From Prostheceraeus crozeri (lineage: Eukaryota > Platyhelminthes > Polycladida > Euryleptidae): a DNA stretch of 64,000 bases. The stretch is from positions 1 through 64,000 of the forward strand of contig CAJQUW010009206.1 in NCBI GenBank assembly GCA_907163375.1, read 5' to 3'. Shown piece after piece: positions 1,548-19,401 of the stretch. The notes under the pieces are model-generated. The model ran no database searches. It saw nothing but the letters and a program-made list of their open reading frames with translations, and had not been told where the DNA came from. Every line of letters starts with the position of its first letter. Positions within the stretch are counted from its first letter, which is position 1. The translations under genes and the position numbers were made by a program.

Positions 1548-1583
1548 AAATCGGCTAAAGCCAGAGGAGCTTCGCTCCGATTT
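1548..1583. repeat. Double-hairpin mini-element, terminal copy
   Basis: Outer stem AAATCGG/CCGATTT encloses two small hairpins, GGCT-AA-AGCC and GGAGC-TTC-GCTCC. The same sequence occurs inverted at 19366-19401 and, inside the polymerase gene, at 8656-8689. Confidence 0.85.
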
Positions 1584-1644
1584 GGGCGTTTTTAAAAATA
1601 CCCAATTTTTCAAATTTTTCAAAATCTCAAAATTTGAGAATTAC

Positions 1645-1678
1645 AATCGGGCGAAGCCCTAGAACCTTCGGTTCGATT
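1645..1678. repeat. Double-hairpin mini-element, GGGCGAAGCCC type
   Basis: Outer stem AATCG/CGATT encloses GGGC-GAA-GCCC and GAACC-TTC-GGTTC with TA between them. Copies lie at 1760-1793 and, inverted, at 19271-19304. The core GCGAAGC is known as an exceptionally stable DNA mini-hairpin. Confidence 0.85.
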
Positions 1679-1759
1679 TTCACCCGCCCCCAAAATCATG
1701 ACCGTTCCAGGACACCGAAAAAATCATAAAAGTTAAGAATCTCAAAATTTGAGAATTAC

Positions 1760-1793
1760 AATCGGGCGAAGCCCTAGAACCTTCGGTTCGATT
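1760..1793. repeat. Double-hairpin mini-element, second subterminal copy
   Basis: Identical in arrangement to 1645-1678. It lies in a partly duplicated subterminal block (about 1740-1830) that also carries CTCAAAATTTGAG and CCGTTCTAGGACACC. Confidence 0.85.
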
Positions 1794-1916
1794 TTCACCC
1801 CCGCCAAAATCATGACCGTTCTAGGACACCGAAAATTAGTATTTTTAAAAACGTCTTTTAAATCCATTTTTCAGGTTTTTAAAATATATCATGTGACTAA
1901 AAATATTTCTTTAAAA

Positions 1917-2645
1917 ATGGAAGAAACAAAAGTGGAAGGAACTTCAGAAATGGAAGGAACCTCAAGAATATATCCTTCGTTATCATATGAACGTAGTTCT
2001 ACTTTAATGGACATTGAAAAGATTAACATTGAAAAAATGAATAAAGAAAAACACAAAGATAGAGTTAGGTATATGAAAGATAAGGAATCACAATTATTAT
2101 TAAGATTAGAGCATTATAAAAAATTAAGAAAGAGATGGACTAAAGTTAAGAATGTAACACAAGGAATTGGCATATTCTTTACAATAAGTTTGGGTGCTTT
2201 AACAATTGTTATATCTTCAGGTGTTTTAGTAATTCCAGTAGTTGCTACAGCTTTAACAGGTACGGGTGTTTTTGCAACTTCACTTGTTACAATGTTAGAT
2301 AAATCTTTAATAACTAAGAAACGAAAATCATTAAAAACTAAGCATTTACATATTAAAGAAGTCTATGATAAACTACATTACTACTTTCAAAGAGTATGTG
2401 ATGATAATGTTATTACGTTAGATGAGATTGAAAAATTTGATCAAATAGCTAATGAAGTAAATCAAATATCATTTCAATTACAGTCAGAAAAAGTTGATGA
2501 TAAGAATAAACAGGATGGCAAAATTTCGAGTGATGGTAAAATTTCTAATGAAGAAAATGACAAAATTTTTTTAGAAGAGCTAAAAACTTTAAGCGAAAAT
2601 TTAAGCAAAACTTTATTAAACAAAACTTTATTAAACAAAACTTAA
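1917..2645 (+). CDS. Predicted membrane protein of Polinton
   Basis: About 242 residues. I start at 1917 because the codon sits in the TTTAAAAATG context shared by most genes of the element; the open frame itself runs further upstream through terminal-repeat sequence. The N-terminal third is charged and helical. A basic stretch (KKLRKRWTK) precedes two adjacent hydrophobic segments rich in Ile, Val, Gly and Thr, then a basic KKRK patch, a helical region and a low-complexity tail ending in repeated LLNKT. Membrane proteins of this layout (charged N-terminus, helical hairpin, basic helical C-terminus) occur in invertebrate Polintons; their role is unproven and may be virion-membrane related. 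The repeated tail continues in broken form to about 2690. Family likeness is from pattern, not a search. Confidence 0.7.
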   Translation: MEETKVEGTSEMEGTSRIYPSLSYERSSTLMDIEKINIEKMNKEKHKDRVRYMKDKESQLLLRLEHYKKLRKRWTKVKNVTQGIGIFFTISLGALTIVISSGVLVIPVVATALTGTGVFATSLVTMLDKSLITKKRKSLKTKHLHIKEVYDKLHYYFQRVCDDNVITLDEIEKFDQIANEVNQISFQLQSEKVDDKNKQDGKISSDGKISNEENDKIFLEELKTLSENLSKTLLNKTLLNKT

Positions 2646-2781
2646 AACGAGAAAACTTTAACCGAGAAAACTTTAAACGAAAAGATGTCAAACAACAAAG
2701 CAATAAAAAAATAATTTGTTCAGTAAAATGTTTTTGCTGTATTCCAATGTTACCACAAAATTCAAATATTATATTTTAAAA

Positions 2782-3639
2782 ATGAATAAAATTAGAGCTG
2801 ATAATTATAAAAGAATAAAACAATTAGAAGAGTTATTAAAACAAAGAAATATTATGAAAGAAAATCATCTTCAACATAGAATGATAAAAACTGGTATTCA
2901 ATCTGATATGTTTGAAAAAATGCAGCAAACCGAACAAGTAAAAACTGATTTTGAGAAAACTATGAAACCATTTAAAACTCTTGAAAAAGAAAGTACAAAT
3001 AATGATAAACAAATTGATATAACAGATCCAGAGCACAAAACTGTATTAGATGACTATGGATTACTAGAATCAAACATTAATAAGAAATTACCAAAATCTA
3101 TCCAATTTGAACATTCTATTTCATTTATAGATGGAAAAACAATACCTAGATTTTATCTCGGACAAAAAGAAATATTTCCACAACCTTTTCGAGGTATAAT
3201 TTTTTCACCAGATAAATCTCCTTTTAATTTAGATAGAAATTTTGTTAATCTTTTAAGAGGAGCAGATTTAAATAATTATGCTGTAGAAGATCTCATAAAA
3301 TATAAAGCTATGTTAGATAGAGTTGGTGCAGTAAAATCTCTTAGACGTTATAAACAATTAGAAAATTTATTATCAACGGGAGTTAAAGTAGGGAAAGGTT
3401 TATCTGAAAAACAGAAAACTGAAACAACTGTATTTTTACCAGATGATCCACAAGAATTACTAAATAGATTAAATATTTTAATATCTGCAATAAAAGAAGG
3501 ACATAATTCTAGTTTCAATGAAATTCATGCTATATTGAAAAGACTGTTAGAAAAGAAGATTCTAAATGAAGAGGATTATAAAAGTATAACGGACATCTCT
3601 GATGTCCTCCAGGGCTTCGCCCGAACCGGACATCTCTGA
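2782..3639 (+). CDS. Unrecognised Polinton protein
   Basis: About 285 residues from the ATG at 2782, which has the TTTAAAAATG context. I do not recognise it. The first 90 residues are charged and probably coiled-coil. A central part (around ISFIDGKTIPRFYLG) is more globular and Pro-rich, and the C-terminal 110 residues are helical. It lies just upstream of the penton-like gene, so a virion role is possible by position only. The last residues and the stop codon come from a pair of hairpin mini-elements (3590-3660), so the original C-terminus may have differed. Confidence 0.65.
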   Translation: MNKIRADNYKRIKQLEELLKQRNIMKENHLQHRMIKTGIQSDMFEKMQQTEQVKTDFEKTMKPFKTLEKESTNNDKQIDITDPEHKTVLDDYGLLESNINKKLPKSIQFEHSISFIDGKTIPRFYLGQKEIFPQPFRGIIFSPDKSPFNLDRNFVNLLRGADLNNYAVEDLIKYKAMLDRVGAVKSLRRYKQLENLLSTGVKVGKGLSEKQKTETTVFLPDDPQELLNRLNILISAIKEGHNSSFNEIHAILKRLLEKKILNEEDYKSITDISDVLQGFARTGHL

Positions 3640-3660
3640 TGTCCTCCAGGGCTTCGCCCG
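3590..3660. repeat. Tandem pair of double-hairpin mini-elements
   Basis: Two identical 34-bp units (3590-3623, 3627-3660), each with GGACATC-TCT-GATGTCC and GGGC-TTC-GCCC inside a CGG/CCG outer pair. The stop codon of the upstream gene lies inside the second unit. A related mixed unit is at 9851-9884. Confidence 0.85.
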
Positions 3661-3728
3661 TAGCTGAAATATGTTGTTGTTTTACTTTTTTCATAAAAAA
3701 ATATTTATTTAATTTTTTAAGTTTAAAA

Positions 3729-4517
3729 ATGTGTTCAGCAGATTTAGACAAAATTAATAATCATTTAGAAAATTTGATAGAGATTTTGGGTTCATCAAAA
3801 TTTAGTACGACGTTAAAAATTATAACAACTACTTCATCACACACTTGTAATTTAGAACCCATTCTACATTTGGAACAAAATAAAAATTATCAAATTGCAT
3901 TGACTAGTTTCTCTACATTTAACACTATTCAAAACGTTATCAAAGATGTGAATGATCAATTTAGATATTCTACTGATAAAGGTGAAACATGGAAAATATT
4001 AACTTTTCTTCCTGGTTCTTACGAAGTTGAATCAATATCAAATGAAATTAAGAGGCATTTAGGTATACCATTTAAAGATAAGAAACAATTACATTTTGCA
4101 GTTGAACCGGCAGTTAATAAATTTTCTCTTACTTTAGACGAAAATCGTCAAGTTGATTTTAATCATGATAGATCATTGTCAAAGCTATTAGGATTTAATA
4201 AACAAACCTATAGACAAGGTTATCATTTAGGTGAGAAGATTCCAAAAATAACTGAAATAAATTCAATTGTTGTACATTGTGACATTATTGAAGGAGGATA
4301 TATAAATGGTAAATTATCAAATTTAATATTCAGTTTTCCAGCTTTTACTGTACCCATTGGTTATAGATTAAATGTAATTCCACAAACATTAATATATTTT
4401 CCTATTACAAGAAAAACTATTAACAACATTAACATGAGAATCACTGATGAAAAAGGACAAGAAATAAATTTTGGAGGTGAAGAGATTATGATAGATCTTT
4501 TGGTTCGGGAGGTATAA
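3729..4517 (+). CDS. mCP: Minor capsid protein, penton-like (single jelly roll)
   Basis: About 262 residues, started at 3729 (TTTAAAAATG context); an upstream in-frame ATG at 3639 lies inside a hairpin element and is unlikely to be used. The order of features matches the penton-like minor capsid protein of Polintons and adintoviruses: a charged N-terminal helix, a segment with GSYEVESISNEI, a SLSKLLGF motif, an INSIVVHCDIIEGGYINGK segment and a C-terminal strand pair ending in GEEIMIDL. In related viruses this protein forms the capsid vertices. It sits directly before the packaging ATPase. The last residues and stop codon fall in a short repeated GC-rich sequence (4503-4540). Confidence 0.85.
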   Translation: MCSADLDKINNHLENLIEILGSSKFSTTLKIITTTSSHTCNLEPILHLEQNKNYQIALTSFSTFNTIQNVIKDVNDQFRYSTDKGETWKILTFLPGSYEVESISNEIKRHLGIPFKDKKQLHFAVEPAVNKFSLTLDENRQVDFNHDRSLSKLLGFNKQTYRQGYHLGEKIPKITEINSIVVHCDIIEGGYINGKLSNLIFSFPAFTVPIGYRLNVIPQTLIYFPITRKTINNINMRITDEKGQEINFGGEEIMIDLLVREV

Positions 4518-4540
4518 ACCCCCGTTCGGGAGGTATAAAC
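4503..4540. repeat. Direct repeat overlapping the penton gene stop
   Basis: GTTCGGGAGGTATAAAC occurs at 4503-4519 and 4524-4540. The TAA inside the first copy is the stop codon of the penton-like gene. GGAG and CTCC in the second copy can pair. Nearby CGCGAAGCTA resembles the GCGAAGC hairpin core. Confidence 0.7.
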
Positions 4541-4627
4541 TCCTACGCGAAGCTAGAGAAGTTTAATTTTCTTCTTCTTTAGAAACAAAAAATAAAAAAA
4601 AATTAAAATAAATTTTTTTATTAAAAA

Positions 4628-5395
4628 ATGAGTGAAGTACTACCATTAAATAAAAAAAAACTTAAATTTAATCATCATCCAAATTTATCTAATAAAGTTT
4701 TGTCAGTTATTTGTGGAAGATCAGGATGTGGAAAAACATATCTATTATTTAAAATTTTAACGACTCCAAATTTTTTGGATTATAACAATCTTATAATTTA
4801 TACAACAACAGCAGAACAACCCGTCTATCAATTTTTAAAATATGGATTTGAAAATAATCTTAAAAAAACTGCAATTGCTTCATTATTCAAAGAATATGAA
4901 AAATCTGAAGATGAAGAAGAAATAAGTTCGTGGTGTGAAGAAGCAACAAAAAATAATCAGTTAGTAGAATCTAATAAAAATAAGCATATAAAAATACAAT
5001 TAATAGATGATAGTGGTAATATGCAAGATTCTAGTAAACTAGATAAAACAATGAAACATTGTGTAATTTTTGATGATTGTGTTAATGATAGAAATCAGTC
5101 AGTTCAGAGAAATTATTTCACAAGAGGTAGACATAATAACTGTAGTGTATTTTATTTAACACAAAGTATGTATTCATTAGACGGAAGTGTTATTAGAAAG
5201 AATGCAAATATATTTATACTATTTGAAATAAATGCAAGAAACTTAAGTGATTTGTTAAGAGATTTATGCGTAAGAAATAAAGATGAATTTAAACAATCGT
5301 GTAATAATGCTTGGTCAAAAGATTATGGCTTCATTACAATTAATATTGATAAAAAAATTCATGAAAGAGTTATCGAAAATATTTTCGCGGAGTGA
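4628..5395 (+). CDS. ATP: FtsK/A32-like genome-packaging ATPase
   Basis: 255 residues. P-loop GRSGCGKT at residues 30-37, Walker B-type CVIFDD at 145-150, and an RGRHNN...FYLTQS block at 166-180 that fits the sensor region of this family. These proteins pump the DNA genome into the procapsid in Polintons, virophages and adintoviruses. The length is normal and the frame is intact. The start context is ATTAAAAAATG. It is the last of four + strand genes on the left side and faces the polymerase gene, leaving an 82-base AT-only gap (5396-5477) with no visible hairpin. Confidence 0.93.
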   Translation: MSEVLPLNKKKLKFNHHPNLSNKVLSVICGRSGCGKTYLLFKILTTPNFLDYNNLIIYTTTAEQPVYQFLKYGFENNLKKTAIASLFKEYEKSEDEEEISSWCEEATKNNQLVESNKNKHIKIQLIDDSGNMQDSSKLDKTMKHCVIFDDCVNDRNQSVQRNYFTRGRHNNCSVFYLTQSMYSLDGSVIRKNANIFILFEINARNLSDLLRDLCVRNKDEFKQSCNNAWSKDYGFITINIDKKIHERVIENIFAE

Positions 5396-7280
5396 TAAAA
5401 ATATACAAATATAGGTTTACAATATTTTTTTTTATTTTATATATATATCAAATTTGTCTATCTTAGAAATTAGAAAATTAAAAAGGTTCAGTAGTTATTC
5501 CATCAGGTAAAATTTTTCTTTTATCATCAAATGGATCTAATGCTAATTTATGTTCTTCTTTTAAATACATGTTATGTTTTTTTGAATTAAGTCTATAATT
5601 ACATGCTGTTTTTATTTCATTATTAAATAATGCATTTTTATAATCTTGAAATCTTATTTGATTAGCCACTGATGCCTTTGAAATTCCTTTTAATGTTTTA
5701 TGTGTTTTAATATTATTAGTTGTATCATAACAATAACATTTAGATTTTAAAAATATAGCTTCTGTTATGAAATCTTCATTTCCTTCTAATTCATCTTTTA
5801 CTTTACATAAATCAGAAGGATGAATGATATCTTTTATTTTATTAATTTCTTCATCAAGTGTAGAATTATACGGTATTGTTAATTCTAAGAAAATAGAATC
5901 GGTATCTGTAAAGTGTAATTTATAGTTTTTGCCATAAGCAGGTGCTAAATAATCATATATAAAACTATACATAAATAGTTTAGCTAATTCTAATATAGTG
6001 AAACCAATGAAATTAAACTTATCATGTTTTACAATGCTTCTTCTTAGATGAACAGCACAAAGTTCATCACTGAATCTAGTAGTTCTTTTATATGTAGGTT
6101 TCCTTGTTAAATTTTGAAATCTATCTCTATCATAAACTATTTCAATATTTTGTCTATTACGCACATTTTCTAAAGTCTTACCATAAAATGCATTATTCAT
6201 TAATTTGAAGAAAACGTTTCCAAAATCATCTTTATTTCTTTTAGCTATTTTACGTTTTTCAATATTGAACTCTATATAATTTTTTAACCATTTAGATTTT
6301 CTATACTCTAGTTTTCGATGTATTTTGGTGAGAATCATGCCATGATCTAAATACCAATCTAGCATTCTTCCTTCAACAACATACTTTCCTTTATTACCTT
6401 GTGTTAACATAAGTTTTTTTGTTGGTCTGTATTTTTTCGGTATTATAGATTTTTGATAATCTGAAAAATCTTCTATATTAGGAATTTTGTTTTCTGGACA
6501 GAAAGGATAATATTTTGTTGCGTCTTTTATATAATCAGGATATACTAAATCAACTTCATATACATAACCAAAATTATTTTAACCATCATATGTTCTTTGA
6601 TAATCTAGATTATTACACCATGTCATTTCACCTGTTGGTAATTCTTGTATCATGCAAGAAGAATATAAGCTATTAAAATCATAATATAACAAATAGTTTT
6701 CTCTCATGAATTCATCAATTGCTTTTTCACGTTCTACTCCTTCTTGTTTCGTTCGAAAAATTTCTAATATTTTTTCTTTTTCTTCTGGAGATAAAGGTTT
6801 CATTATTCCATATGTATGTGGATTTACTTTCTTATTATAACATTTAACATATCTATTACCTAAAACTGATGAAACTCCACCTCTAATTCTAGATTCAAAA
6901 AATAATAATTTATCATATGTATTTTCTTTATAATGTTTAAGTTTAACGGACTTTGTCCTAGAGCCATCGGCTTGAACACCAGTATGTTTTAATCCTGCTA
7001 ACCATGTTAAACCTGGTGTAGAATAACAATAACATGGATCTATTCCGTAATATTCTAAACACATGTCACGAAAGTTTTCGAAAAGATCAGCTAGTATTAA
7101 TACATCTATCTGAAGATATTTCATTGTATAATCATACATTGTTTTACAATTTAACTCTCTCCAATTCTTTTCAGCTTCTGCATAGTCTTCGTCAGATAAT
7201 TTTGATTGTTTTAATGTTGATTTAAATTTATTTATTGGAGGAAGTTGTTCTTCTTCCATAATTTTATTCACAGAATTAAA

Positions 7281-7348
7281 ATCAGTCTTCGACTGTGAAC
7301 CACAGGTTTTATCTCCAGTTATATCAGTCTCCGACTGTGAGCCACAGG
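7281..7348. repeat. Paired CAGTC-TTC-GACTG hairpin units in the polymerase gene
   Basis: Two copies of about 26 bp (7281-7306 and 7323-7348). Each has CAGTC-TYC-GACTG overlapping CTGTG-ARC-CACAG. They are in frame and encode a repeated CGSQS(E/K)TD segment in a loop between Exo II and Exo III. They form a second sequence class with the same trinucleotide-loop design. Confidence 0.75.
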
Positions 7349-7724
7349 CTATATACTCATACGGAAATATTCCTTTTAAAGGTTTTAAATTATATTTATT
7401 TAATATTTTACATTGTTCAGATTTCAAAGTTTTTCCCATAACATCTAATGAATAAGGAGTAAAAAATCTAAATGCATCTAAAATTCTAATACAACCTAAT
7501 TGCATTGAAAAATATTCTTCTTCTTGTTTACATAGTACATTTATTTTTTGTTGTTGTAATTTTTCAGATGAAAAAAAATCTTTCATTACTAGATGGAAAT
7601 CATATTTAGAACCATTATAGAAATATAAAGGAACAAAGTTATATTTAAATTTATTAGCATTAAGATTACAAGAATTATGTGCTGTACCTCTATATAATCC
7701 ATTTAGATGATCATGATCTTTTAC

Positions 7725-7757
7725 CTTGACGGCAGAGCCGTCGCTTCGCCTATCAAG
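7725..7757. repeat. Double-hairpin mini-element in the zinc-region of the polymerase gene
   Basis: Outer stem CTTGA/TCAAG encloses GACGGC-AGA-GCCGTC and a GCTTCGC segment. It encodes an in-frame LDRRSDGSAVK stretch immediately before the conserved DHDHLNG block. Confidence 0.75.
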
Positions 7758-8096
7758 ATATCTACCTTTGCCATTTTTATAATTTTTTGTAAATTCTCTT
7801 CCGCAGTAATAACATTTTGTTTCATTAATAAAATTTAATTTTTCTTTTTCTGTTAATGGCATCATCGGTATATTTGTTTCAAGCAATTGTGAAAAACGTC
7901 CTTGTAATTCTTCTACTTTCTTTGTAAACATTTCTGAACTATCTTCACCATAGTATTGAAAATATTCTGATTTAAATAATTCAGGATAATTTGAATGAAT
8001 GTACATTCCCCAACATAATGGTTTTTGTTCAAATAAATATTTTTCTTTACTTTGTTCAGATGCACTTTTTCCAGGTGCACTTTTTTCAGAATTAAA

Positions 8097-8122
8097 AACC
8101 GAAGGTTCTAGGGCTTAGCCCG
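8097..8122. repeat. Hairpin element carrying one polymerase stop codon
   Basis: AACC-GAA-GGTT followed by GGGC-TTA-GCCC. Related copies read GGGC-TTC-GCCC. The loop change makes an in-frame TAA (8115-8117) on the minus strand, so one of the polymerase stops lies in a hairpin loop. Confidence 0.75.
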
Positions 8123-8149
8123 TACCATTTTCAGAATTATAATTTTCAG

Positions 8150-8183
8150 AATCGGGTGAAGCCCTGGAACTTTCCGTTTGATT
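8150..8183. repeat. Degenerate double-hairpin element in the polymerase gene
   Basis: AATCG/TGATT outer pair, GGGT-GAA-GCCC and an eroded GAAC-TTTC-GTTTG arm. It encodes the SSRASP stretch just after the Exo I motif. The mismatches suggest an older insertion. Confidence 0.7.
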
Positions 8184-8655: not shown

Positions 8656-8689
8656 AATCGGAGCGAAGCTCCTCTGGCTTTAGCCGATT
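8656..8689. repeat. Double-hairpin element in the polymerase gene, terminal-repeat type
   Basis: AATCGG-AGC-GAA-GCTCC...GGCT-TT-AGCC-GATT. This is the sequence found in both terminal repeats (1548-1583, 19366-19401). It is in frame inside a Gln/Lys/Glu-rich coiled region and adds an AKARGASLRLN-type peptide. Confidence 0.8.
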
Positions 8690-9719
8690 CTTTATTTTCT
8701 TCATTATTTAATTCTTTATTATTTTCTTCATTTAATTTTTGAATTGTTTCTATCTTATTTTGATATTTATGGTGATATTCTTGTAGTAGCATTTTTGTTT
8801 GTTGTTGATAATCTGTTTTACATTTTTGTAAACTTTTATTTAAATTTTCTAATTTTTGTTGATATTCTGAAGATAAAGATGAATATTTGTAATTATAATC
8901 ATCAGTACGTCCTTTATAATTATTATGATTAATCATTATTGGTGATAGTGTTTTAACAAGTTCAAATTTTTCAGTACATATTATTTTTCCTTGGTAAAAA
9001 ATATTATGATGCATGTAATTTCCTCTATCATTATATACTATTTCTGATTGACATAAATTTTTATTATTCAAATAAAATTTTTTTGAATCTGAGTAAAGTG
9101 GAGTAATTTTACCAATAGAAACATAATTCACATTTAATTCAAAAACATTTACTTCTATTAAATTTTTATTCTTTTTATGAAACTTTATTAACCTATTATA
9201 ATCATATGGAAATTCATCTAAGCCATCAGAGAGATCAAATTCATTTATGTATTCTTCTTGATTGTAATGACTTAGTCTTTCTTTATGATATTCTGCAGGA
9301 TGTAAATGTGCTATAATACTCCACAGAAAACAATAATCATCTTCATTTTTTATGTTGATTATTTGTGGTGAACTGAAAGGCAAAGGAACATAACTACCAC
9401 CAGTATTATTTTTATATTTATCAATTACTATTTTCTTAGATAGTATTTTAACAAATCTCCAACCAGATTCACGTAACTGGGCTTCAATTATTTTCTAATT
9501 TAAGTATCATCGATTCAAATATGGGTTGTATATCATTTACATTATGAATTTCTTGTGAATTTGTAAAATGTCCTTGTATTATTTCTTCAGGAATTCCATC
9601 AGGTCCATTTTTTGTATAAAGTACTTCTACATTCATATAACATTTGAAAGATTTCTTAAATATATTATAAAAGTTTGTTAATACATTATAAAAAGTTTTA
9701 TCGGTTTCATTATATTCAA

Positions 9720-9747
9720 CGGGCGAAGCCCTGGAACCTTCGGTGCG
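9720..9747. repeat. Double-hairpin element in the N-terminal part of the polymerase gene
   Basis: GGGC-GAA-GCCC and GAACC-TTC-GGTGC. In frame, encoding TEGSRASP on the minus strand within an acidic linker. Confidence 0.8.
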
Positions 9748-9850
9748 AAAAGACTGATTAAATAAATATTTTATATTTGCTAAGGCTTCATCAAATTCAT
9801 CTATTTCGTTAAATTCATCAGTATCGCTAAATAAATATCTTCCATCTGGT

Positions 9851-9884
9851 ACGGGCGAAGCCCTGGAAGACATCTCCGATGTCA
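9851..9884. repeat. Mixed double-hairpin element in the N-terminal part of the polymerase gene
   Basis: GGGC-GAA-GCCC (9853-9863) joined to GACATC-TCC-GATGTC (9869-9883), combining arms seen separately at 1645-1678 and 3590-3660. In frame, encoding the MSSRASPV stretch. Confidence 0.8.
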
Positions 9885-10140
9885 CATGTATGGTCTCATC
9901 TTCACTATTAAAAACTTTTTTATATTCCGAATGTGAATAATCATCAAACATTTTTTTAACTTTTATATCAGTAGGCAATGTTTCTAGATAGTTTTTATAA
10001 CTATTTAATTTTAATATATTTCCTTCATCAACTCGTTCTACATTTTGTAAATGCAATTTACTATTTAAATGAGATTGATAACTTCTTTTTGTTTGCAACT
10101 TTTTTTTACATAAGACACAATAAAACTTGGTATTTTCCAT

Positions 10141-10326: not shown

Positions 10327-11640
10327 TTAAGTTTCATCATATAATGTTTTATCAAAAGATAATTTAAATTTTTTTTCACTAACTATTGATTCATCATCAT
10401 CATCATAAATTGTTTCTTCATCATCATCATAAATTGTTTCTTCATCATCATCATAAATTGTTTCTTCATCATCATAAATTACACTTTTTGGTATAGGATG
10501 CCCTTCCATGATAGGATACCATTCTCTTATTGGAATATCTAATTCTAATTTACATCTTTTATCTGTTAATAATATAATAGAGAAAAATATTGGTCTTTGA
10601 TCTCTTTTGGAAAATTTAATAACACCACCATAATCTGAATCACTTTTAGTTTTTGTTAAAGATGATAAAATTTTAAATTGATTAGATGTAAATCCTAATT
10701 TAAATTTTGTAGACCCGACACATAGTTGTCTAACAGTATCTTCAACTATACCATCATTATTATTTTCAATTGTAAGAAAATGAAATTTAGATAAATTTTT
10801 ATAATTACTAATATTTTTATAATCTTTTTTACCATTTACACCTTTTTCAGATGTTACAGAATCATCATTATTATCATAAGATTCTTTAAGATCGGGCAAA
10901 GCCCTAGAATCTTCGGTTCGTTTATTATGATTATGGACATTGTTAATAGTATAAGGTGTAGTCCACATATAAATTTTCTCTTGTTGAGCTAAACCATTTA
11001 TATAAGATTTTAATAAATTAATATTTAAGTTGGAATATAATCCTATGTACGTATCATCATCATATCTTTGCGGCATTTCTAATGTTTCTTGTTTATAAAT
11101 TGTGTCTCTATAATAAACTTGACATAATAATTCTTCATTATGTTTTTTACTCTCTATGTGTATGTTATATTGATTTTGATCGTCAACAAATAATCTAATT
11201 TTTTCTTTCGAAAAAGATTTTAATTTTTTAACTAATTCTTTAATATTGATATAATTAATAATTTTAGTTTCTATCCAATCAGTATTACTAATTGGTAACA
11301 CTGCTCTAATAAATCCATAAACATTATTATGACCTATTATAACCATATTTTCTTTATTTAATTCAACATAAGCTACATCATTATATTTACTTACAATCTC
11401 CATAAATTTAATAAATGGATCCCCCGGAAATAAACAATAATTAGTTTCTATAGAAGGTAAACCTTTAGTCTGTTCTCTAAATATTTCGGCTTGTAATTGA
11501 AATAAAATATTAACATCTATACATGGATTATTATTATTATTATTATCAAAACATTTATTTTCAAATCCCGTTGATCTCGTCGAATAAGAAGAACAGGATG
11601 ATGCGGGCGAATATAATTTTTTTAAATTTGGATTTTCCAT
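10327..11640 (-). CDS. Unrecognised protein, possibly sliding-clamp-like
   Basis: 437 residues, intact. The N-terminus is Ser/Asn-rich (NNNNNN). About residues 70-230 alternate short strands and helices: an FIKFMEIVSKYNDV helix followed by a VYGFIRAVLP strand region, then an INIKELVKKLKSFSKEKIRLFV block. A second half ends in RPIFFSIILLTDKRCKLELDIP. This rhythm recalls PCNA-type processivity clamps, whose domains end in a similar strand followed by a Pro, and a place next to the polymerase gene would suit such a role. That is inference; no diagnostic motif is present. A hairpin element (10890-10921) interrupts the middle in frame. The C-terminus carries about three tandem YDDDEETI repeats. 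The start has an AATAAAAAAATG context on the minus strand. Confidence 0.6.
   Translation of the reverse strand: MENPNLKKLYSPASSCSSYSTRSTGFENKCFDNNNNNNPCIDVNILFQLQAEIFREQTKGLPSIETNYCLFPGDPFIKFMEIVSKYNDVAYVELNKENMVIIGHNNVYGFIRAVLPISNTDWIETKIINYINIKELVKKLKSFSKEKIRLFVDDQNQYNIHIESKKHNEELLCQVYYRDTIYKQETLEMPQRYDDDTYIGLYSNLNINLLKSYINGLAQQEKIYMWTTPYTINNVHNHNKRTEDSRALPDLKESYDNNDDSVTSEKGVNGKKDYKNISNYKNLSKFHFLTIENNNDGIVEDTVRQLCVGSTKFKLGFTSNQFKILSSLTKTKSDSDYGGVIKFSKRDQRPIFFSIILLTDKRCKLELDIPIREWYPIMEGHPIPKSVIYDDEETIYDDDEETIYDDDEETIYDDDDESIVSEKKFKLSFDKTLYDET
10890..10921. repeat. Double-hairpin element inside the clamp-like gene
   Basis: GGGC-AAA-GCCC and GAATC-TTC-GGTTC, a slightly diverged copy of the 1645-1678 type. 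In frame, encoding TEDSRALPD at the likely boundary between the two halves of the protein. Confidence 0.8.
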
Positions 11641-12672: not shown

Positions 12673-13266
12673 ATGCCTATAATTTATAAACACAATCTTA
12701 AACATTTTGCATCAAATAATAAAATTGCTCATGAACCATCTCAGAAACCTGTGTACCATTATGATAGTGTAGAAACTGTCAGAACACAAAAGTTCCTAGG
12801 CACCGCAGGTGCCGTTGAAAAAGAAGGGGCTGGCATCTTTTCTGGTATTGGAAGTATCGTTAACTTAATTAAAAATAATAAAGATTTGATTACATCTGCT
12901 GCAAAAGGAGCAGCTGCTATAGGTAGTACAGCTAGTGCAATATCAAATGCTGTTAAATCACAAAACGAATTAAAACAACTAGAAGCTATTCGCAAACTTA
13001 GGAATGATTCTGAAGAACTAAAAAATTTAAAAAAACTTTCAGATGAAACAAAAAACAAAATTGCTAACATAGCTGTGGAGGGTGAAACCTTGAGGAGCGG
13101 AGCTCCGTCTAATAGTAAACATAATGAAAATAAAAATAATGAAAAAACAGGCGTAGCCATAGAACCTACGGTTCGTTCAATTGAAGAAATAAGAGGAAAT
13201 GGCGTGAGTAGCAACCTTCGGTTTAACCAGCAAAGCTGTAGCGGAGCTGGTCTAGCAAAATTCTAA
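12673..13266 (+). CDS. Small virion protein, pVI-like (tentative)
   Basis: 197 residues, start context CCTAAAAAATG. A Gly/Ala-rich amphipathic stretch (GAGIFSGIGSIVNLI, then AAKGAAAIGSTASAI) follows a short N-terminal region, then a charged helix. This layout resembles the membrane-active minor capsid proteins (adenovirus pVI-like) described for adintoviruses, but the match is by composition only. The C-terminal third is built largely from hairpin mini-elements: 13094-13106, 13150-13174 and 13213-13251. Another hairpin (GGCACC-GCA-GGTGCC, 12799-12813) encodes the LGTAGAV stretch. It lies 43 bases after the fibre-like gene and before the capsid gene. Confidence 0.65.
   Translation: MPIIYKHNLKHFASNNKIAHEPSQKPVYHYDSVETVRTQKFLGTAGAVEKEGAGIFSGIGSIVNLIKNNKDLITSAAKGAAAIGSTASAISNAVKSQNELKQLEAIRKLRNDSEELKNLKKLSDETKNKIANIAVEGETLRSGAPSNSKHNENKNNEKTGVAIEPTVRSIEEIRGNGVSSNLRFNQQSCSGAGLAKF
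13094..13251. repeat. Cluster of GC-rich hairpins in the 3' part of the pVI-like gene
   Basis: GGAGC-GGA-GCTCC (13094-13106); GGC-GTA-GCC plus GAACC-TAC-GGTTC (13150-13174); AACC-TTC-GGTT (13213-13223); CAGC-AAA-GCTG nested in ACCAGC/GCTGGT (13226-13251). All have short trinucleotide-type loops and keep the frame open. Confidence 0.75.
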
Positions 13267-13377
13267 AATATATTTTTTAGTAAAATTTTTTTTAGTAAAA
13301 TTTTTTTAATAAAATATTTTAGTAAAATTTTTTCTATCTGTGAGAAAAACAAAAAGTCAAATTATTTTTTATAAAAA
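13267..13377. promoter_or_regulatory. Capsid gene upstream region
   Basis: Repeats of TAGTAAAATTTTTTT (about 13277-13330), then TTTTATAAAAATG leading into the capsid start at 13378. The context matches the other element genes. Confidence 0.55.
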
Positions 13378-14710
13378 TGTCTTCGCTTATCGAAAATAAA
13401 TTTAGATTAGACGATCCTCCGTTCGTCAGTTATAATCAAAAAAGAATGACTATATAAGAATTGCTATGAATCCCGGATCTTCCAGTAGAGTAAATACTGG
13501 AGGAGATTTAATTTTTGAAGTTGATAATCAGCAGAGCTATTTATATTTACCTGATTCATTTTTACACTGTGAATATTCTTTATATAGTGATGCTAATTTT
13601 ACAACACCATTACCAGATACCGATAATATTACACTAGAGAATAATTTTTTCCGAAGTTTATTTACACAAATGCGTTTAGATGTTGCAACTCAAAATATAG
13701 AAACAATAAGTGATTCTCCAGGTGTAATTGATACAATGCTTAGATTTGTAACAATTGGTGAAAATAATAAAAAGCATGAAATCGAAGGTTGGTTTCCTGA
13801 TACTAATGATGGTATAATTGTTGATGATTTAACTCACGCTGGAACAGATGCAGCAGGAATTGCGAAAGATGTAGAAAATATTGCAAAACATTTAAATAAA
13901 ACAAATAATGAAGCATATAAAGAAAGACGTGAATTTAACAAGAAAAGTAAGCAAACAGTAAATTGGTCATTGTCTCCATTATTCGGATATTTAGATTATG
14001 ATAAAATATCATATCAGTTAAAATTTAAATTAATAATTCATCGTACAGCAAATAATGAATTAATCTTTTTTGGTAAAACTGGAAAAAAAGCATATTTAAA
14101 AATTGATAGACTTGAATGGTGGATTAAGCATATTACTCCTAGTTTAGAGGTTGAAACAGCTATTGCAAAAAGATTAAATACTAACAAACCAATTCCAGTT
14201 AATTTTCTAAAGCGTACTGCTAGTTCAGTAACTTTTTCAGAGCAAAGATTTAACTGGCATTTTACTAGAACTGCGAATACTCCAAGATATTTATTACTAA
14301 CATTTCAAAGAAATAATTCTCCAAGTTTTGATAAGAACAATAATATTTTTCATATTAATACAATTCGAAGTTTACAAGTTTCATTAAATCAAACTCGATA
14401 TCCAATTGATCCATTAAGATTCGATGATACCAATAATCAATTTATGGAAGGATATGATTCTTATAGAAATCTTTGTATAGAATTTGGAGTTGAACCACAA
14501 TTAACTCCTGGAGATTGGAGACATTTATATCCAATTTTCTGTTTCGATTTAAGTGCACAATCTGAAGATATTATTAAAAATGGTTGTGATGTAACAATTA
14601 ATATTGAAAAGAAAGATTCCACAACTTCATTGATGGCTTATGGTTTATTGCTAGAAGATGCAAAATATTCTATTGAAATTCTTAATGGAAAGATGGTTAG
14701 GATAGGTTAA
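13378..14710 (+). pseudogene. MCP: Major capsid protein (double jelly roll), frameshifted near the start
   Basis: The capsid frame is open from 13436 to 14710 (first ATG 13466, 414 residues). Its end, with a WRHLYPIFCFDLSAQSE block and a final strand region, matches the Polinton/adintovirus hexon-like capsid protein. The ATG at 13466 lacks the A-rich context of the other genes. The ATG at 13378 has it but opens a 27-codon frame that ends at 13459. The two frames overlap at an A run (about 13438-13443), so a single lost A or a slip there explains the break. The protein would form the capsid facets. Apart from this the gene looks complete. Programmed or transcriptional slippage is possible but less likely than decay. 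Confidence 0.87.
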
Positions 14711-14847
14711 TTAAAATTTTTTTCATAACTAGAATAGATTAAAATTTTTGTTAACTTAAAAATTCTTAACTAAAAATTTTTCATAACTAGAATAGATTTA
14801 AATTTTTTGATAACTTTAAATTCTTAACTTAAAATTTTTTATTAAAA
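14711..14847. promoter_or_regulatory. Repeated AT spacer after the capsid gene
   Basis: Two imperfect copies of a unit of about 60 bp starting with CATAACTAGAATAGATT and ending near AATTCTTAACT precede ATTAAAAATG of the next gene. Probable promoter sequence; no GC hairpin. Confidence 0.5.
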
Positions 14848-15333
14848 ATGTCGCAAGCGAAAAGTAATATTAATAATAAAACTGTTGAATTAAAATTACG
14901 TAATATTGTTGACAAAAATACCCCTAAAACTATTACGATTAATAAAAAAAAGTATTATATAAGTAAACCAATGATAGAGAATATTCAATTACAAGAAGAA
15001 AAGAATGGCGGGATTCTCCCATTAATTCCACTAATAATAGGTGGCATAGCAGCTGCAGGAAGTGTTGCAGGTGGGACAGCTGGTATTGTCCAAGCAGTAA
15101 ATAAAAATAAATCAGAGAAGGCAGCATTAGAAGAACAAAAACGTCATAATAGGGAGTTAGAGAAAGTTGCTAGGGGAGAAGGAATAGTAGATAATTTTAT
15201 CAGTAAATTAAAATTAGTTGATGAAGGAAAACGAGTTCTTAAAAATATTCTCCACAATGTTGATGATTTAATTGAAATTAAAGAAACTAAAGATGGTTCT
15301 GGAATATATCTAAGTCCTAGTATGATAAGGTAA
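14848..15333 (+). CDS. Small core/minor virion protein, pX-like
   Basis: 161 residues, intact, start context ATTAAAAATG. A basic N-terminus (INKKKYYISKP) is followed by a hydrophobic Gly/Ala-rich segment (GGILPLIPLIIGGIAAAGS) and a charged helix (EEQKRHNRELEKVARGEG). The end is a SGIYLSPSM motif. Small proteins with a Gly/Ala-rich hydrophobic stretch, an adjoining charged helix and a terminal G-x-Y-L-x-P motif are a recurring Polinton/adintovirus type near the capsid gene, compared with adenovirus core or pVI proteins. The role is probably structural and unproven. A GAACC-TTT-GGTTC hairpin lies just after the stop (15342-15354). Confidence 0.7.
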   Translation: MSQAKSNINNKTVELKLRNIVDKNTPKTITINKKKYYISKPMIENIQLQEEKNGGILPLIPLIIGGIAAAGSVAGGTAGIVQAVNKNKSEKAALEEQKRHNRELEKVARGEGIVDNFISKLKLVDEGKRVLKNILHNVDDLIEIKETKDGSGIYLSPSMIR

Positions 15334-15341
15334 TAACCTCA

Positions 15342-15354
15342 GAACCTTTGGTTC
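15342..15354. repeat. Single hairpin after the pX-like gene
   Basis: GAACC-TTT-GGTTC, one arm of the double-hairpin family, 8 bases after the stop codon and 32 bases before the next start codon. Confidence 0.6.
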
Positions 15355-15386
15355 TTTTCGGTAAAACTTTTATTTTATCTTTTAAA

Positions 15387-16790
15387 ATGAATACTAAAAA
15401 TTCCGAAAATTTAATTAAATTAAAAATTTCTAATTTAGATTTATTAAATTATCTATTAAACAAAAATAAAAACTCAAACTGTCAGCATATTGGAGGTGAC
15501 AAGAACAAAGTTCCACACCACTTCGGTGGTGATATACAAAAAACATTAGAAAACCTTCCTGGATTTATTTGGAGTAAATATTCGAAAGAAAAACATCTTC
15601 CTGGTCATTCATATACTGGGCCAGGAACTCGATTAGATATAAGACTAGATGAGAATAATAATCCGAAACCAGGTGAAGAACCAATAAATAGAGTAGATGC
15701 CGCCGCTTACAGGCATGATTTAGCTTATCGAAATCATGATCTAAGTTCTCGTCATGCAGCTGATAAGAAGATGATTCAAGAATTAGATAGTATTCAGAAT
15801 CCTACATTTAGAGAAAAAATTGAAAGAATGTTTGTTAAGAAAGCTTTACAAGCTAAAATATTATTCGGTCAGGGTTTAAATGAAACGACAGCAAAGCTGT
15901 CTGAGAGCAACGCTCGAACTAATAACTCTGAGAGCAACGCTCGAACTAATAACTCTGAGAGCAACGCTCGAACTAATAACTCTGAGAGCAACGCTCGAAC
16001 CTACGCATCTGAAATTCATAAAGAATACAGAAGGCCTAAATATTTATTGAAAGTAAAAGTATTTAATAAAGATGATATTTGGAGTGCTGATCTTATTCAT
16101 ATGCCGAATGAAAGGGACTACAAATACACATTGACCGTTATAGATTTATATACACGATACGCTTGGGTAAAACCTTTAAAAAATAAAACTGGTCTATCAG
16201 TTAAATATGCGTTTGAAGAAATCTTTAAAGAAAGTAATAGAAAGCCAAAAAAATTGTTTGTTGATAAAGGATCGGAATTTTATAACAGAAACGTTCAGCC
16301 ACTATTTGAAATTGTTTATTCAACTGAAAACGCTGGGAAGGCCGTAGTGATAGAAAGATTTAATCGGACGTTAAAAAATAAAATTTTCAAGAAATTTACT
16401 CAGCAAGGAAATCAGAAATGGTTAAAAATATTACCAGGAATTGTAGAGCAGTACAATAATAAAGTTCATTCAGGTATTGAAGAAACCCCAAAGAATGCTT
16501 CTGATGACCCTGATTTGATACGAAAGAAAATATTCGAGAATAATAATTTGAATGAGAGTAATCCGAATTTGCAGAAACTTAAGCCGAAATTTAAAATTGG
16601 AGATAGAGTTAGAATATTTAAATATAAGAACAAATTTGAAAAAGGCTTTGTTGGCTATTGGACTAAAGAAATATTTGAAGTTTGCAAAATAAATCAAAGT
16701 TATCCGATTACTTATGAAATTAAAGATTTAGATAATGAGGATATCAGAGGCCGTTTTTATCAAAATGAATTACAGAAAACAGAGCTTTAA
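15387..16790 (+). CDS. INT: Phospholipase-A2-like domain fused to retroviral-type integrase
   Basis: 467 residues, one open frame from 15387 (TTTTAAAATG context). Residues 1-165 carry a parvovirus-coat-type PLA2-like domain: YTGPGTRLD (76-84, calcium-loop-like) and AYRHDLAYR (107-115) with the His-Asp dyad. Residues about 171-205 are four SESNART repeats. Residues 230-345 are an rve integrase core with catalytic Asp236, Asp293 and Glu324, followed by a basic SH3-like C-terminal domain (KFKIGDRVRI onward, about 402-460). The PLA2-like part could breach endosomal membranes; the integrase would insert the element. The Asp293-Glu324 spacing is 30 residues, slightly short of the usual about 35. 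A single chain with both functions is unusual, and an N-terminal integrase zinc domain is not visible. Confidence 0.88.
   Translation: MNTKNSENLIKLKISNLDLLNYLLNKNKNSNCQHIGGDKNKVPHHFGGDIQKTLENLPGFIWSKYSKEKHLPGHSYTGPGTRLDIRLDENNNPKPGEEPINRVDAAAYRHDLAYRNHDLSSRHAADKKMIQELDSIQNPTFREKIERMFVKKALQAKILFGQGLNETTAKLSESNARTNNSESNARTNNSESNARTNNSESNARTYASEIHKEYRRPKYLLKVKVFNKDDIWSADLIHMPNERDYKYTLTVIDLYTRYAWVKPLKNKTGLSVKYAFEEIFKESNRKPKKLFVDKGSEFYNRNVQPLFEIVYSTENAGKAVVIERFNRTLKNKIFKKFTQQGNQKWLKILPGIVEQYNNKVHSGIEETPKNASDDPDLIRKKIFENNNLNESNPNLQKLKPKFKIGDRVRIFKYKNKFEKGFVGYWTKEIFEVCKINQSYPITYEIKDLDNEDIRGRFYQNELQKTEL
15900..16001 (+). repeat. 27-bp hairpin tandem repeats joining the PLA2-like and integrase domains
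   Basis: Units starting at 15900, 15927, 15954 and 15981 (the last partial). Each has GAGC-AAC-GCTC and is a multiple of three, giving a 9-residue repeat. A CAGC-AAA-GCTG hairpin comes directly before. The array sits exactly at the domain junction. Confidence 0.85.
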
Positions 16791-16824
16791 CCTTTAGGTG
16801 GCGCTTTAGCTAGCTTCGCTTGAG
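16791..16824. terminator. Convergent gap between integrase and protease genes
   Basis: Only 34 bases separate the two convergent stops. It contains eroded hairpin-family sequence (AACCTTTAGGTG, AGCTAGCTTCGCT). It could serve as a shared 3' signal, but no polyadenylation motif is clear. Confidence 0.35.
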
Positions 16825-17313
16825 TTATAGATTGTTTAACTCTAACATAATATCTAGAAATGGTACTCCTTTTTGTAATTTGTACAAAACGTATAAACAT
16901 AATTGTCCACAATAAGTAGTGCCTGGTGTTTGAATTTGAAACGTATTGTATGTTCCCGTTCCAAGTAATTCTTTTACTTCATTTGTAGGGGGCAAACCGT
17001 ATGAATCGAACCAATAGTTCTCAGCCTCCGGGCGATCAAAATAATAGTTTTGCTGATGATTTTTAACGCCTGCTGACCAATGTACGCCGTTTTGGTCTGA
17101 AGTGTGAAGATTCGTTATGAAATTTACAGTTATTGATGGAACTTTATTCCGGGAACTGAAGGTTCCTGTTGGCCTATTTTTTAGGAATTGTAATTCATCC
17201 CTCATCAATATGTGAAAATTCTTTATTCCTAATCGATTAGCAATCTTATTTAAATCGAAATTCGTTGTTGTCTGTGTTCCATATAATTTCAAAAACTCAT
17301 TTATGTTGCTCAT
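16825..17313 (-). CDS. PRO: Adenain-like cysteine protease
   Basis: 162 residues, intact. Catalytic pattern of the adenovirus-type maturation protease: His78 (HWSAG), Asp103 (WFDSYG), Gln near 126-128 and Cys135 in TYCGQLCLYVL. It would trim capsid precursors during assembly. Length is in the range for Polinton proteases. The start has a TTATAAAATG context on the minus strand. It is convergent with the integrase gene. A 5' fragment of this gene is duplicated upstream (17624-17760). Confidence 0.9.
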   Translation of the reverse strand: MSNINEFLKLYGTQTTTNFDLNKIANRLGIKNFHILMRDELQFLKNRPTGTFSSRNKVPSITVNFITNLHTSDQNGVHWSAGVKNHQQNYYFDRPEAENYWFDSYGLPPTNEVKELLGTGTYNTFQIQTPGTTYCGQLCLYVLYKLQKGVPFLDIMLELNNL

Positions 17314-17353
17314 TTTATAATAAAAAAATTTCTTAAGGGACCCCTAGAAGACA

Positions 17354-17518
17354 GGGGGGGTATTGATTTAAAACTGTTCTCTAATGATGTCTTTCCTTAC
17401 TACTTAGTCAGAAGGGGGTATTGATTTAAAACATTTTTATAATGATGACTTTCCTTACTACTTGGGGGGGGGTATTGATTTAAAACTGGTCTCTAATGAT
17501 GTCTTTCTTTACTACTTA
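17354..17518. repeat. Three G-run repeats upstream of the protease gene
   Basis: Three imperfect units (about 17354-17405, 17413-17463, 17464-17518). Each starts with a run of 5-10 G and TATTGATTTAAAAC and ends with TTTC(C/T)TTACTACTT. They are the only long G runs in the element and might form G-quadruplexes together. Confidence 0.75.
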
Positions 17519-17623
17519 TTCGATTTTGAAATTATTTAATTTAATCTAAATTTAAACGTTACATTGTTGCATTGTGTTAGTGTTTAACTACATAGAGTTG
17601 GTGTTTCGCTCATCTTTTAACAA

Positions 17624-17760
17624 TAGTAATTCATTACTCATCAATATGTGAAAATTCTTTACTCCCAATTGCTAAGCAATCTCATTTAAATCGAAATTTA
17701 ATGTGGTTTTGTTTGCTGTATATTTTTAGAATGTCTCTAATGTTTCTCATTTTTATAAAA
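17624..17760 (-). pseudogene. Duplicated 5' fragment of the protease gene
   Basis: Aligns with 17190-17320, sharing CTCATCAATATGTGAAAATTC and ATTTAAATCGAAATT and ending in a similar ...CTCATTTTTATAAAA start region. It is diverged and covers only the N-terminal third of the gene, with no catalytic residues. Together with the G-run repeats it suggests a local duplication. Confidence 0.8.
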
Positions 17761-17868
17761 GATACAATGTTTCTATTATATTCCCGTAAATGAGAAATTA
17801 AAAACAACACATGGATATTTCAATATGTATATTTACAAAAATGCAACCACACAAGTCTACAAATATTG

Positions 17869-18159
17869 ATGTCCACACCGTGGACAAGGAATTTTCGTTC
17901 TCCAGTAAAAGAAAATAAAATCAGCTACTACTATTCAACTTCCTTAAAACAATCGGTTATTAACTATAATATTACAAATTGCATTAACAAAATGTCCACA
18001 CCGTGGACAAGGAATTTTCGTTCTCCAGTAAAAGAAAATAAAATCAGCTACTACTATTCAACTTCCTTAAAACAATCGGTTATTAACTATAATATTACAA
18101 ATTGCATTAACAAAATGTCCACACCGTGGACAAGGAATTTTCGTTCTCCAGTAAAATAA
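17869..18159 (+). repeat. 123-bp tandem repeat keeping an open frame
   Basis: Units begin at 17869, 17992 and 18115 (the last partial). Each begins ATGTCCACACCGTGGAC, which includes the hairpin GTCCAC-ACC-GTGGAC. As 123 is a multiple of three, the ORF repeats a 41-residue peptide twice and stops in the third unit. Protein expression is doubtful because the ATG lacks the element's A-rich context. It is better described as a minisatellite. Confidence 0.75.
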
Positions 18160-18192
18160 AATAAAATCAGCTACTACTACTTTTAAGTTCTT

Positions 18193-18867
18193 TTAAGCTT
18201 CTTTCCAAAAGCTTTCATATTTCCGAAGACAATCTTCTAACAATGATAAATTCGATTTCAAAAAACGTAAGGGTACATTTAGTCTACAAATCTTTGGAGA
18301 AATAGATGCCATCTTACCTAATTTAATTGCAAATGCAATTTCAGTCCTTGAATAAGAAATGTTATTAGTTTGCAATAAATGTTGAAAGTATGCATTATCC
18401 TTTTCACACAGTTCCAGTAAATAATTCGCGTGTTTTCCCAGGTAGATTTTCATCATTATGTTAATAACGTTATTTTTCTTCTCCATCACATAAAGAGTAT
18501 TTAAATTTGCAATGGCTTCAGCAGTATCTCCTGAAGGCTCAACAAAGTCTTCTAAGGAATCCACAAATTCATATCGGGTAGATAAAGACGTCGATAATTG
18601 ATGATGAAGGTCGTCAATCTTTCCGTCCCTTTCTCTTTCTTTCTTTTCTTTCACGAGTAAGCGTTTTGCTTTTCTTCTCCGTTTTCTTTCCTTATCAAAA
18701 AATGTAGGGTCAAAAATAATCGGAAATTTCTCCATTTGTTCAATGATGAAAGTGTTATATTCTTCCTTCTTATCATTGGAAATATATCGTTTTGAAATTT
18801 CTGTAAATAACTCCGGAAACGTAGCAATAATGTTTGACTGCTCTTCGATAACTTCTTGTGTTGACAT
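18193..18867 (-). CDS. Accessory protein, unrecognised
   Basis: 224 residues, intact, inside the element but with base use less AT-rich than the core genes. Its ATG has no A-rich lead (it is preceded by GTGATCAGTC). A strongly basic patch (KERKRRRKAKRLLVKEKKERER, residues about 58-79) could be nuclear-localising or nucleic-acid-binding. The C-terminal half is helical with a compact region around NNISYSRTEIAFAIKL. I know no function. The different start context suggests later acquisition or host-type transcription. Its upstream 300 bases (18870-19200) hold no other gene. Confidence 0.6.
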   Translation of the reverse strand: MSTQEVIEEQSNIIATFPELFTEISKRYISNDKKEEYNTFIIEQMEKFPIIFDPTFFDKERKRRRKAKRLLVKEKKERERDGKIDDLHHQLSTSLSTRYEFVDSLEDFVEPSGDTAEAIANLNTLYVMEKKNNVINIMMKIYLGKHANYLLELCEKDNAYFQHLLQTNNISYSRTEIAFAIKLGKMASISPKICRLNVPLRFLKSNLSLLEDCLRKYESFWKEA

Positions 18868-19270
18868 GACTGATCACAGCGCAGCACACGATACAATGAC
18901 AGACGAGAGAGATAAATGAAAACAGTACAGCTGGCAGATATCTTAACGTCATACGGGTGTGCTGACGCACGCCTAACGTACAATTAAAATGTCATTGTTT
19001 CACAGAGTAGTAGCAGCTGTTTGTTCTTTCATACATTGTTTCCTTTCAAATGTTTGAGTTGGAGGACACAGCTCCTTACACTGAAATGCATTTTATTCTT
19101 AAATGCGGGAAGCAGATGTTCTCTACAATTGAGTGTTTATCTGAGTGCAAATTGTAAGAACGCCAGGAGCGGTCATGATTTGAGCAAGAAAATGATCATA
19201 ATCACAAATTTGAGATTCTTACCTTTTATGATTTTCGGTGTCCTAGAACGGTCATGATTTGAGCAATGAA

Positions 19271-19304
19271 AATCGAACCGAAGGTTCTAGGGCTTCGCCC
19301 GATT
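19271..19304. repeat. Double-hairpin element, right terminus
   Basis: Inverted copy of 1645-1678: GAACC-GAA-GGTTC and GGGC-TTC-GCCC inside AATCG/CGATT. Confidence 0.85.
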
Positions 19305-19365
19305 GTAATTCTCAAATTTTGAGATTTTGAAAAATTTGAAAAATTGGGTATTTTTAAAAACGCCC

Positions 19366-19401
19366 AAATCGGAGCGAAGCTCCTCTGGCTTTAGCCGATT
19401 T
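19366..19401. repeat. Double-hairpin element, right terminus, GGAGC type
   Basis: Inverted copy of 1548-1583, 20 bases from the end of the terminal repeat. Confidence 0.85.

Follow-up and report, generated by a model that had tools for sequence, protein, structure and literature searches.

Short double-hairpin palindromes, probably mobile, in a Polinton lineage of the flatworm Prostheceraeus crozeri

The stretch of DNA analyzed here, hereafter referred to as the window, comprises positions 1 to 64,000 of contig CAJQUW010009206.1 (assembly GCA_907163375.1) from the polyclad flatworm Prostheceraeus crozeri. It contains a Polinton, extending from approximately position 1208 to 19421, which carries the short, GC-rich, double-hairpin units that are the subject of this investigation. 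The Polinton is AT-rich, mostly 23-34% GC per kb, and the DNA around it is 29-47% GC. All of the hallmarks of such elements are present, namely terminal inverted repeats (TIRs), PolB, an rve integrase, an ATPase, and a double-jelly-roll capsid protein. The TIRs, each 155 bp in length, are delineated by positions 1528-1682 and 19267-19421 and are 100% complementary. Pfam matches place an A32-like ATPase at 4628-5395, PolB in two pieces at 5478-6410 and 6579-8006, the double-jelly-roll capsid protein (MCP) at 13466-14710, and a phospholipase A2-integrase protein at 15387-16790. The PolB of the window copy is interrupted, and each piece was analyzed on its own; one interruption falls within a unit at 8095..8124.

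A typical unit is characterized by a 28-nt core, usually with C first and G last, that contains two adjacent GC-rich hairpins with loops of mostly three bases. Once inserted, a unit typically reads AT-[C, 26 nt, G]-AT or similar, which amounts to 28+2=30 bp, and both units of the TIRs fit it. In the left TIR the class-1 unit occupies 1550..1583 and consists of AT, a 28-nt core running from C to G, and AT, the core being shared with units at 8656-8689 and 19367-19400. The class-2 unit (1645..1678, forward strand) reads [GGGC GAA GCCC] TA [GAACC TTC GGTTC] inside C...G, with AT on both sides. The right TIR holds a class-2 unit at 19271-19304 and a class-1 unit at 19367-19400. A second class-2 unit (1760..1793, forward strand) lies in a 115-bp duplication adjoining the left TIR, and units of this class are found in either orientation relative to the genes. 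An earlier, sequence-only reading of the window had described an outer stem of 5-7 bp around the hairpins. The pairing AATC...GATT is indeed there, but it is not a separate part: as the typical inserted form explains, it is A-AT-C...G-AT-T and thus mostly target repeat.

The same reading had reported a swarm of at least 20 units confined to the Polinton, and both the number and, in the sample inspected, the confinement were borne out. Its ten listed units are all in place, and 24 unit places were located within 1548-19401. That at 15340 is a lone hairpin, and in a few others one of the two arms is weak; two more units, at 17005 and 17137, were recognized later. Those beyond its list lie at 6947, 7285, 7326, 8097, 8150, 12784, 13085, 13209, 15500, 15887, 17005, and 17137. 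Hairpins were counted when they displayed a perfect stem of at least 4 bp, a 3-base loop, and at least three G/C among the inner four. Positions 1208-19421 contain 28 of these versus a mean of 0.9 and a maximum of 3 in 30 dinucleotide shuffles, a count that includes four copies of a 27-bp tandem (15905-15996), three satellite palindromes (17 bp, in a 123-bp repeat, 17870-18132), and the TIR duplicates. The remaining 44.6 kb (19422-64000) contain nine versus a shuffle mean of 11.3, and hence no excess. Folding of 36-nt windows placed 105 of 6060 at or below -6 kcal/mol in the element versus 6 in one local shuffle, and 174 of 14848 in the rest of the window versus 109 in the shuffle. A covariance model of class 2, built from six units, gave 17 matches with E values of 1 or less in the 64 kb, all between 1549 and 19400 and none in the other 44.6 kb. 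A scan of window positions 1-20000 against Rfam gave no matches.

In the whole 2.05-Gb assembly (14165 contigs, the window included), a class-2 pattern with 16 fixed letters is matched exactly at 5177 places, whereas the reversed control pattern gave none. All 48 of the loci inspected, taken from the first contigs of the match list and including two overlapping pairs, sit in Polinton DNA. A locus was counted as Polinton if it matched a Polinton protein, the TIR, or both; in the four that matched no protein, the TIR match extends over at least 421 nt. Neither these 48 loci nor positions 19422-64000 gave any sign that the units are equally common in host DNA. The Polinton family is of high copy number: a 631-bp gene query returned 3669 first-look candidates, and the 40 that were scored, the window included, are 95-100% identical. 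One locus, L039, represents a divergent Polinton relative in the same genome (its first open reading frame (ORF) is 33% identical) and contains a TIR-like stretch with units of both classes. In IMG/VR, a pattern scan gave 19 matches with the second arm in none, a class-1 pattern gave none, and scans with the capsid protein, an integrase alignment, and an alignment of ORF 12673 found no relative. A 26-letter class-2 pattern had no exact match in a prokaryote genome collection.

The Polinton copies were also compared with one another. Gene segments from the window and from loci L020-L047, excluding L023 and L026, which overlap others, were aligned pairwise. There were 690 pairwise events in which a clean indel of at least 15 nt was observed, the same alleles recurring between events, and 30 was the commonest length (184 events). 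An automatic sort by fold energy, GC content, length range, and absence of a long repeat yielded 84 rows, 31 of unit type and 53 non-unit, although this grouping over-splits sites. All 31 unit-type rows have lengths divisible by 3 and they fall in several ORFs, in agreement with the in-frame placement noted from the sequence. A flanking repeat of at least 2 bp accompanies 19 of the 31 (null mean 5.65, maximum 15, in 5000 trials). When the events were grouped by hand, 19 in-gene sites emerged at which a unit is present in some copies and absent in others, three of them empty in the window copy (near 6595, 9790, and 15170 in window numbering). At 12 of the 19, the commonest form is 30 bp. At 14 sites the insert is flanked by a direct repeat of at least 2 bp of which the empty allele has only one copy, the outcome that insertion at a short staggered cut would produce. 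When these inserts were placed at random in 20000 trials, a mean of 3.96 and a maximum of 11 such sites resulted. The rules for the 19 sites were hand-made, draw on the 690 events already described, and name insert lengths, such that their 19/19 divisibility by 3 is not independent, and the claim regarding reading frame therefore rests on the 31 automatic rows. Placed outside of the 19 sites were a tandem duplication at 3591, the tandem array at 15887, position 13209, and all non-unit indels, together with partial or compound rows, such as those of 21 bp at 13149, 24 bp inside 12784 and 10890, 42-60 bp near 8097, 45 bp at 8150, and 48 bp near 9790.

The internal units of the window copy are distributed as follows. 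A tandem pair of mixed units, [GGACATC TCT GATGTCC]..[GGGC TTC GCCC], is positioned at 3590..3660 at the 3' end of ORF 2782-3639; in four other copies this site holds one class-2 unit (three copies) or one mixed unit (one copy). The unit at 6945..6974 is flanked by an AA(C) repeat, and the site is empty in other copies. At 7282..7311 there is a 30-nt insertion of type [CAGTC TTC GACTG].. with an ATC repeat, and a second unit of that type follows at 7324..7353. These two were inserted independently, 42 bp apart, for locus L045 has only the latter and L033 only the former. A 24-nt unit with a GCGAAGC mini-hairpin, a motif familiar from aptamer work, lies at 7727..7750 within an endonuclease-VII-like part of PolB and has a 1-bp repeat. 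Class-2 units are located at 8095..8124 (reverse strand, TA repeat) and 8150..8183 (forward strand, AT repeat), the latter replaced in some copies by a 39-nt mixed unit. The class-1 unit in PolB at 8656..8689 (reverse strand, AT repeat) is identical over 34 bp to that in the TIRs. A class-2 unit at 9718..9749 (forward strand, AA repeat) encodes the peptide RTEGSRASP, and other copies are empty or mixed at this site. The mixed unit at 9849..9890 (forward strand) joins the GGGC arm to the GACATC arm and encodes TSEMSSRASP; most other copies are class 2 or empty. ORF 10327-11640 carries a class-2 unit at 10890..10921 (forward strand, 1-bp repeat).

Four units are clustered in ORF 12673-13266: a 36-nt unit, [GAAC..GTTC]CTA[GGCACC GCA GGTGCC], at 12779..12816 with a GT repeat; a 27-nt insertion with [GGAGC GGA GCTCC] at 13085..13111 with a 1-bp repeat; a class-2-like unit, [GGC GTA GCC]..[GAACC TAC GGTTC], at 13147..13176 (forward strand); and a compound unit at 13208..13255, located at the C-terminus, for which homologues display shorter forms. 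The integrase ORF contains a 33-nt unit, [GAAC AAA GTTC]CA[CACCAC TTCG GTGGTG], at 15500..15532 with a 1-bp repeat, and, in its linker, a unit followed by the 27-bp tandem array at 15887..16000, [GACAGC AAA GCTGTC]TGA[GAGC AAC GCTC]. The two units recognized later are a 30-nt insertion with degenerate loops (17004..17036, ATC/GTC repeat) and a 33-nt double-hairpin insertion (17137..17172, TGG repeat); they may be older than the rest. Three coding regions showed no unit-type indels: MCP across 12 sequences, the C-terminal piece of PolB across 13, and ORF 11743-12630 across 11, each number including the window. This is in keeping with selection against harm.

The mixing and matching of arms between units can be seen directly at positions 8150, 9720, and 9851, where the second arm is GAACC..GGTTC (28-nt core) in some copies and GACATC..GATGTC (approximately 37 nt) in others. 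The diversity of the arms, and the resemblance of some second arms to local sequence (GGTGA around 15500), might suggest that each unit was made de novo at its site by short inverted template switches rather than copied from place to place. This explanation is largely refuted by the identical or near-identical cores at several unrelated sites, and it is further opposed by the thousands of occurrences of an 18-base part of one core in the genome, by arms that are GC-rich in an element of 23-34% GC, and by short repeats around inserts that are most often 30 bp long; it must be regarded as extremely unlikely.

Beyond this genome, the insertions were examined against protein homologues. In PolB, the unit at 7725 is a clean 8-codon insertion relative to homologue P0124 (85% identical), and that at 6947 is a 10-codon insertion relative to P0121 (78% identical). 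In place of the window's class-2 peptide at 8150, P0124 bears TSEMSSRASP, the peptide of the mixed unit, and it was the sole match to any of 12 unit-peptide patterns among the 196 homologues fetched. For ORF 12673-13266, 14 homologues were found; the 12784 unit is present in three of them, as is the 13085 unit, for which P0201 provides a clean empty form and some others end before the site. The C-terminal compound unit shows graded forms across the homologues. For the integrase, 1484 homologues were found, 120 of them were listed, and 65 were aligned; none of the 65, one of which is 71-79% identical, has the peptide found in the linker of the window copy. Most database homologues are without most of the units. 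The ORF itself (15387-16790) fuses a phospholipase A2-like domain (PF08398) to the rve integrase, and most of the 120 listed homologues, out of the 1484, are given with this pairing as well.

These alignments bear on the possibility that the units are segments ancestral to the proteins and that the empty alleles arose by precise in-frame deletion between short repeats. Direct repeats of 2-3 bp would permit such slippage, and the site at 17137 has but one empty copy and that at 17005 one or two. Identical sequence is found in unrelated genes, however, the more distant homologues show the empty form, and one site may be occupied by different unit types. With 19 sites both filled and empty, the likelihood of ancestral segments is judged to be slight in the extreme. 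A role as functional cis elements of the virus, retained as sites for replication, packaging, or recombination, is favored by the presence of one class-1 and one class-2 unit in each TIR, by both classes in the TIR-like stretch of the divergent L039, and by the high stability predicted for the unit hairpins. Yet most of the internal units examined are missing in some copies, at varying sites and with target repeats, and homologues lack most of them, such that retention for function is an unlikely explanation for the units as a whole; a function in the TIRs could be compatible with parasitism by the internal units. Lastly, the high copy number of the family (the 3669 candidates) offers ample chance for recombination or gene conversion, and arms do differ in place. 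It could be imagined that a few original insertions were spread solely in this manner and that the patchwork of filled and empty sites arose only afterwards. Many separate insertions would nonetheless be required to account for 19 distinct sites, of which 14 show target repeats, and this renders the view very unlikely.

The units are thus probably mobile but non-autonomous mini-palindromes, forming a family that parasitizes one Polinton lineage. Overall, what the sequence-only reading had observed is confirmed, and its interpretation is supported and sharpened. Several observations weigh against this conclusion. Multiples of 3 also prevail among the non-unit indels (43 of 53 rows), a sign of selection on the genes that is not specific to the units. 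At five of the 19 sites (7725, 9790, 10890, 13085, and 15500) the repeat is only 0-1 bp, and two of these five carry 30-bp inserts. By plain count, with no chance level, the flanking dinucleotides are equal in only five of 11 class-2 contexts; the corresponding count for class 1 is five of six. A blind search for target repeats around 19 internal units of the window gave a mean of 2.9 versus a null of 3.2, and thus no excess, because the edges of the units were not yet known; the short repeats surfaced only once empty alleles were compared. Among the six class-2 units of the model, 87% of the pair cells are paired, and sliding the partners lowers this to at most 50%. Strict covariation, however, is weak and not above shuffling: the units resemble one another because of shared ancestry. 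At the 8150 site, in a sample biased toward loci with the exact pattern, the stems vary more than the flanks and the stem positions are not clearly conserved; owing to that bias, the rates for stems, loops, and flanks were set aside. Presence and absence among copies may be due in part to recombination. Finally, movement was not seen directly, and the mobilizing enzyme discussed below is a hypothetical candidate.

If the units are mobile, their spread would take place during replication of the virus genome. Protein-primed strand displacement would bare single strands, and the units could fold upon them. A branch-cutting nuclease might then make or seal the staggered joints, possibly an endonuclease-VII-like domain fused to PolB or, alternatively, host repair. 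Arms would be swapped by template switching at the common GGGC..GCCC arms, and purifying selection would subsequently clear those insertions that shift the frame or fall in conserved genes. With the usual footprint of 28+2=30 bp, an insertion leaves the reading frame intact. T4 endonuclease VII is an enzyme that makes cuts with a short stagger in branched DNA. Among the PolB relatives, P0126 scores 25.8 bits for PF02945 (Endonuclease_7; cut-off 23.6), P0122 22.8, and P0124 21.6; the match is weak, at 15.9, in piece 6579-8006 of the window, where the domain-like region itself holds a unit. The PolB-fused domain is only a tentative candidate for the mobilizing enzyme, with the odds somewhat against it. 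The more complete scheme, that of viral parasites in the form of approximately 28-nt double-hairpin transposons with a 28+2 bp footprint suited to coding DNA, moved in protein-primed replication by the polymerase-fused endonuclease-VII-like nuclease and swapping modular arms, is possible but doubtful. Transposons of this size would, to our knowledge, be among the smallest mobile elements known. The integrase of the Polinton was also considered. Polinton integrases produce a 6-bp target duplication, which the repeats of approximately 2 bp do not fit, and the blind search of the window showed no excess; insertion of this type was rejected.

By anatomy, the closest analogue is the GC clusters of yeast mitochondria. 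According to PMC4478555, these, GC42 for example, are short, GC-rich, mobile palindromes in AT-rich DNA. Direct repeats of 2-3 bp, either AG or ACT, flank them, they are polymorphic for presence and absence, and their units merge and are shuffled. The Polinton units are likewise short GC-rich palindromes dispersed in AT-rich DNA, with short direct repeats, single in empty alleles, at most polymorphic sites, and with shuffled arms at 8150, 9720, and 9851. Unlike the clusters, which are 42 nt in length and mitochondrial, they have a typical core of 28 nt and reside in a Polinton of a nuclear assembly, all inspected loci being Polinton DNA; moreover, their repeats are mostly AT-rich rather than AG or ACT, they are seen mostly in genes, and their usual footprint is 30 bp. 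The resemblance to Rickettsia palindromic elements and to mitochondrial double-hairpin elements that had been suggested holds for in-frame insertion and for form, but size and duplications differ, and the GC clusters are closer. As in the mitochondrial double-hairpin elements of Allomyces and others, two adjacent hairpins are dispersed in a selfish-looking manner; flanking duplications are reported as lacking in Allomyces (PMC2800124), whereas repeats of at least 2 bp flank the Polinton units at 14 of the 19 sites. Like the Rickettsia elements, the units sit in frame in unrelated protein genes, but the former are 100-150 bp in length (PMC3767692 and PMC10969869) and the commonest insert here is 30 bp.

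A literature search, from which subscription papers were mostly excluded and which covered PMC5799277, PMC11071296, and PMC13196603 in passages, found no description of such units in Polintons, adintoviruses, or virophages. For hairpin mini-elements, whether of Rickettsia or of organelles (for the mitochondrial ones, PMC4478555 and PMC2800124), the mode of movement has yet to be settled. In the Polinton family, a single genome holds a very large number of copies that are nearly identical yet differ in which sites are filled, show target repeats, and vary in their arms. The rules of insertion can be read directly from them, and the family supplies a testable candidate enzyme for such movement. 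It also places hairpin mini-elements in a Polinton, where they give rise to new peptides within viral proteins.

Other features of the window were noted as well. A 123-bp satellite is present in three copies at 17869-18237, the third only partly alike, and each contains the palindrome TGTCCAC-ACC-GTGGACA, which is probably unrelated to the double-hairpin units. To the left of the Polinton, at 603-647, lies a GC-rich hairpin pair of another design. Two window ORFs, 29426-30940 and 60020-61324, encode an RVT_1 reverse transcriptase domain, and ORF 22488-23273 contains PAN and C-type lectin domains.

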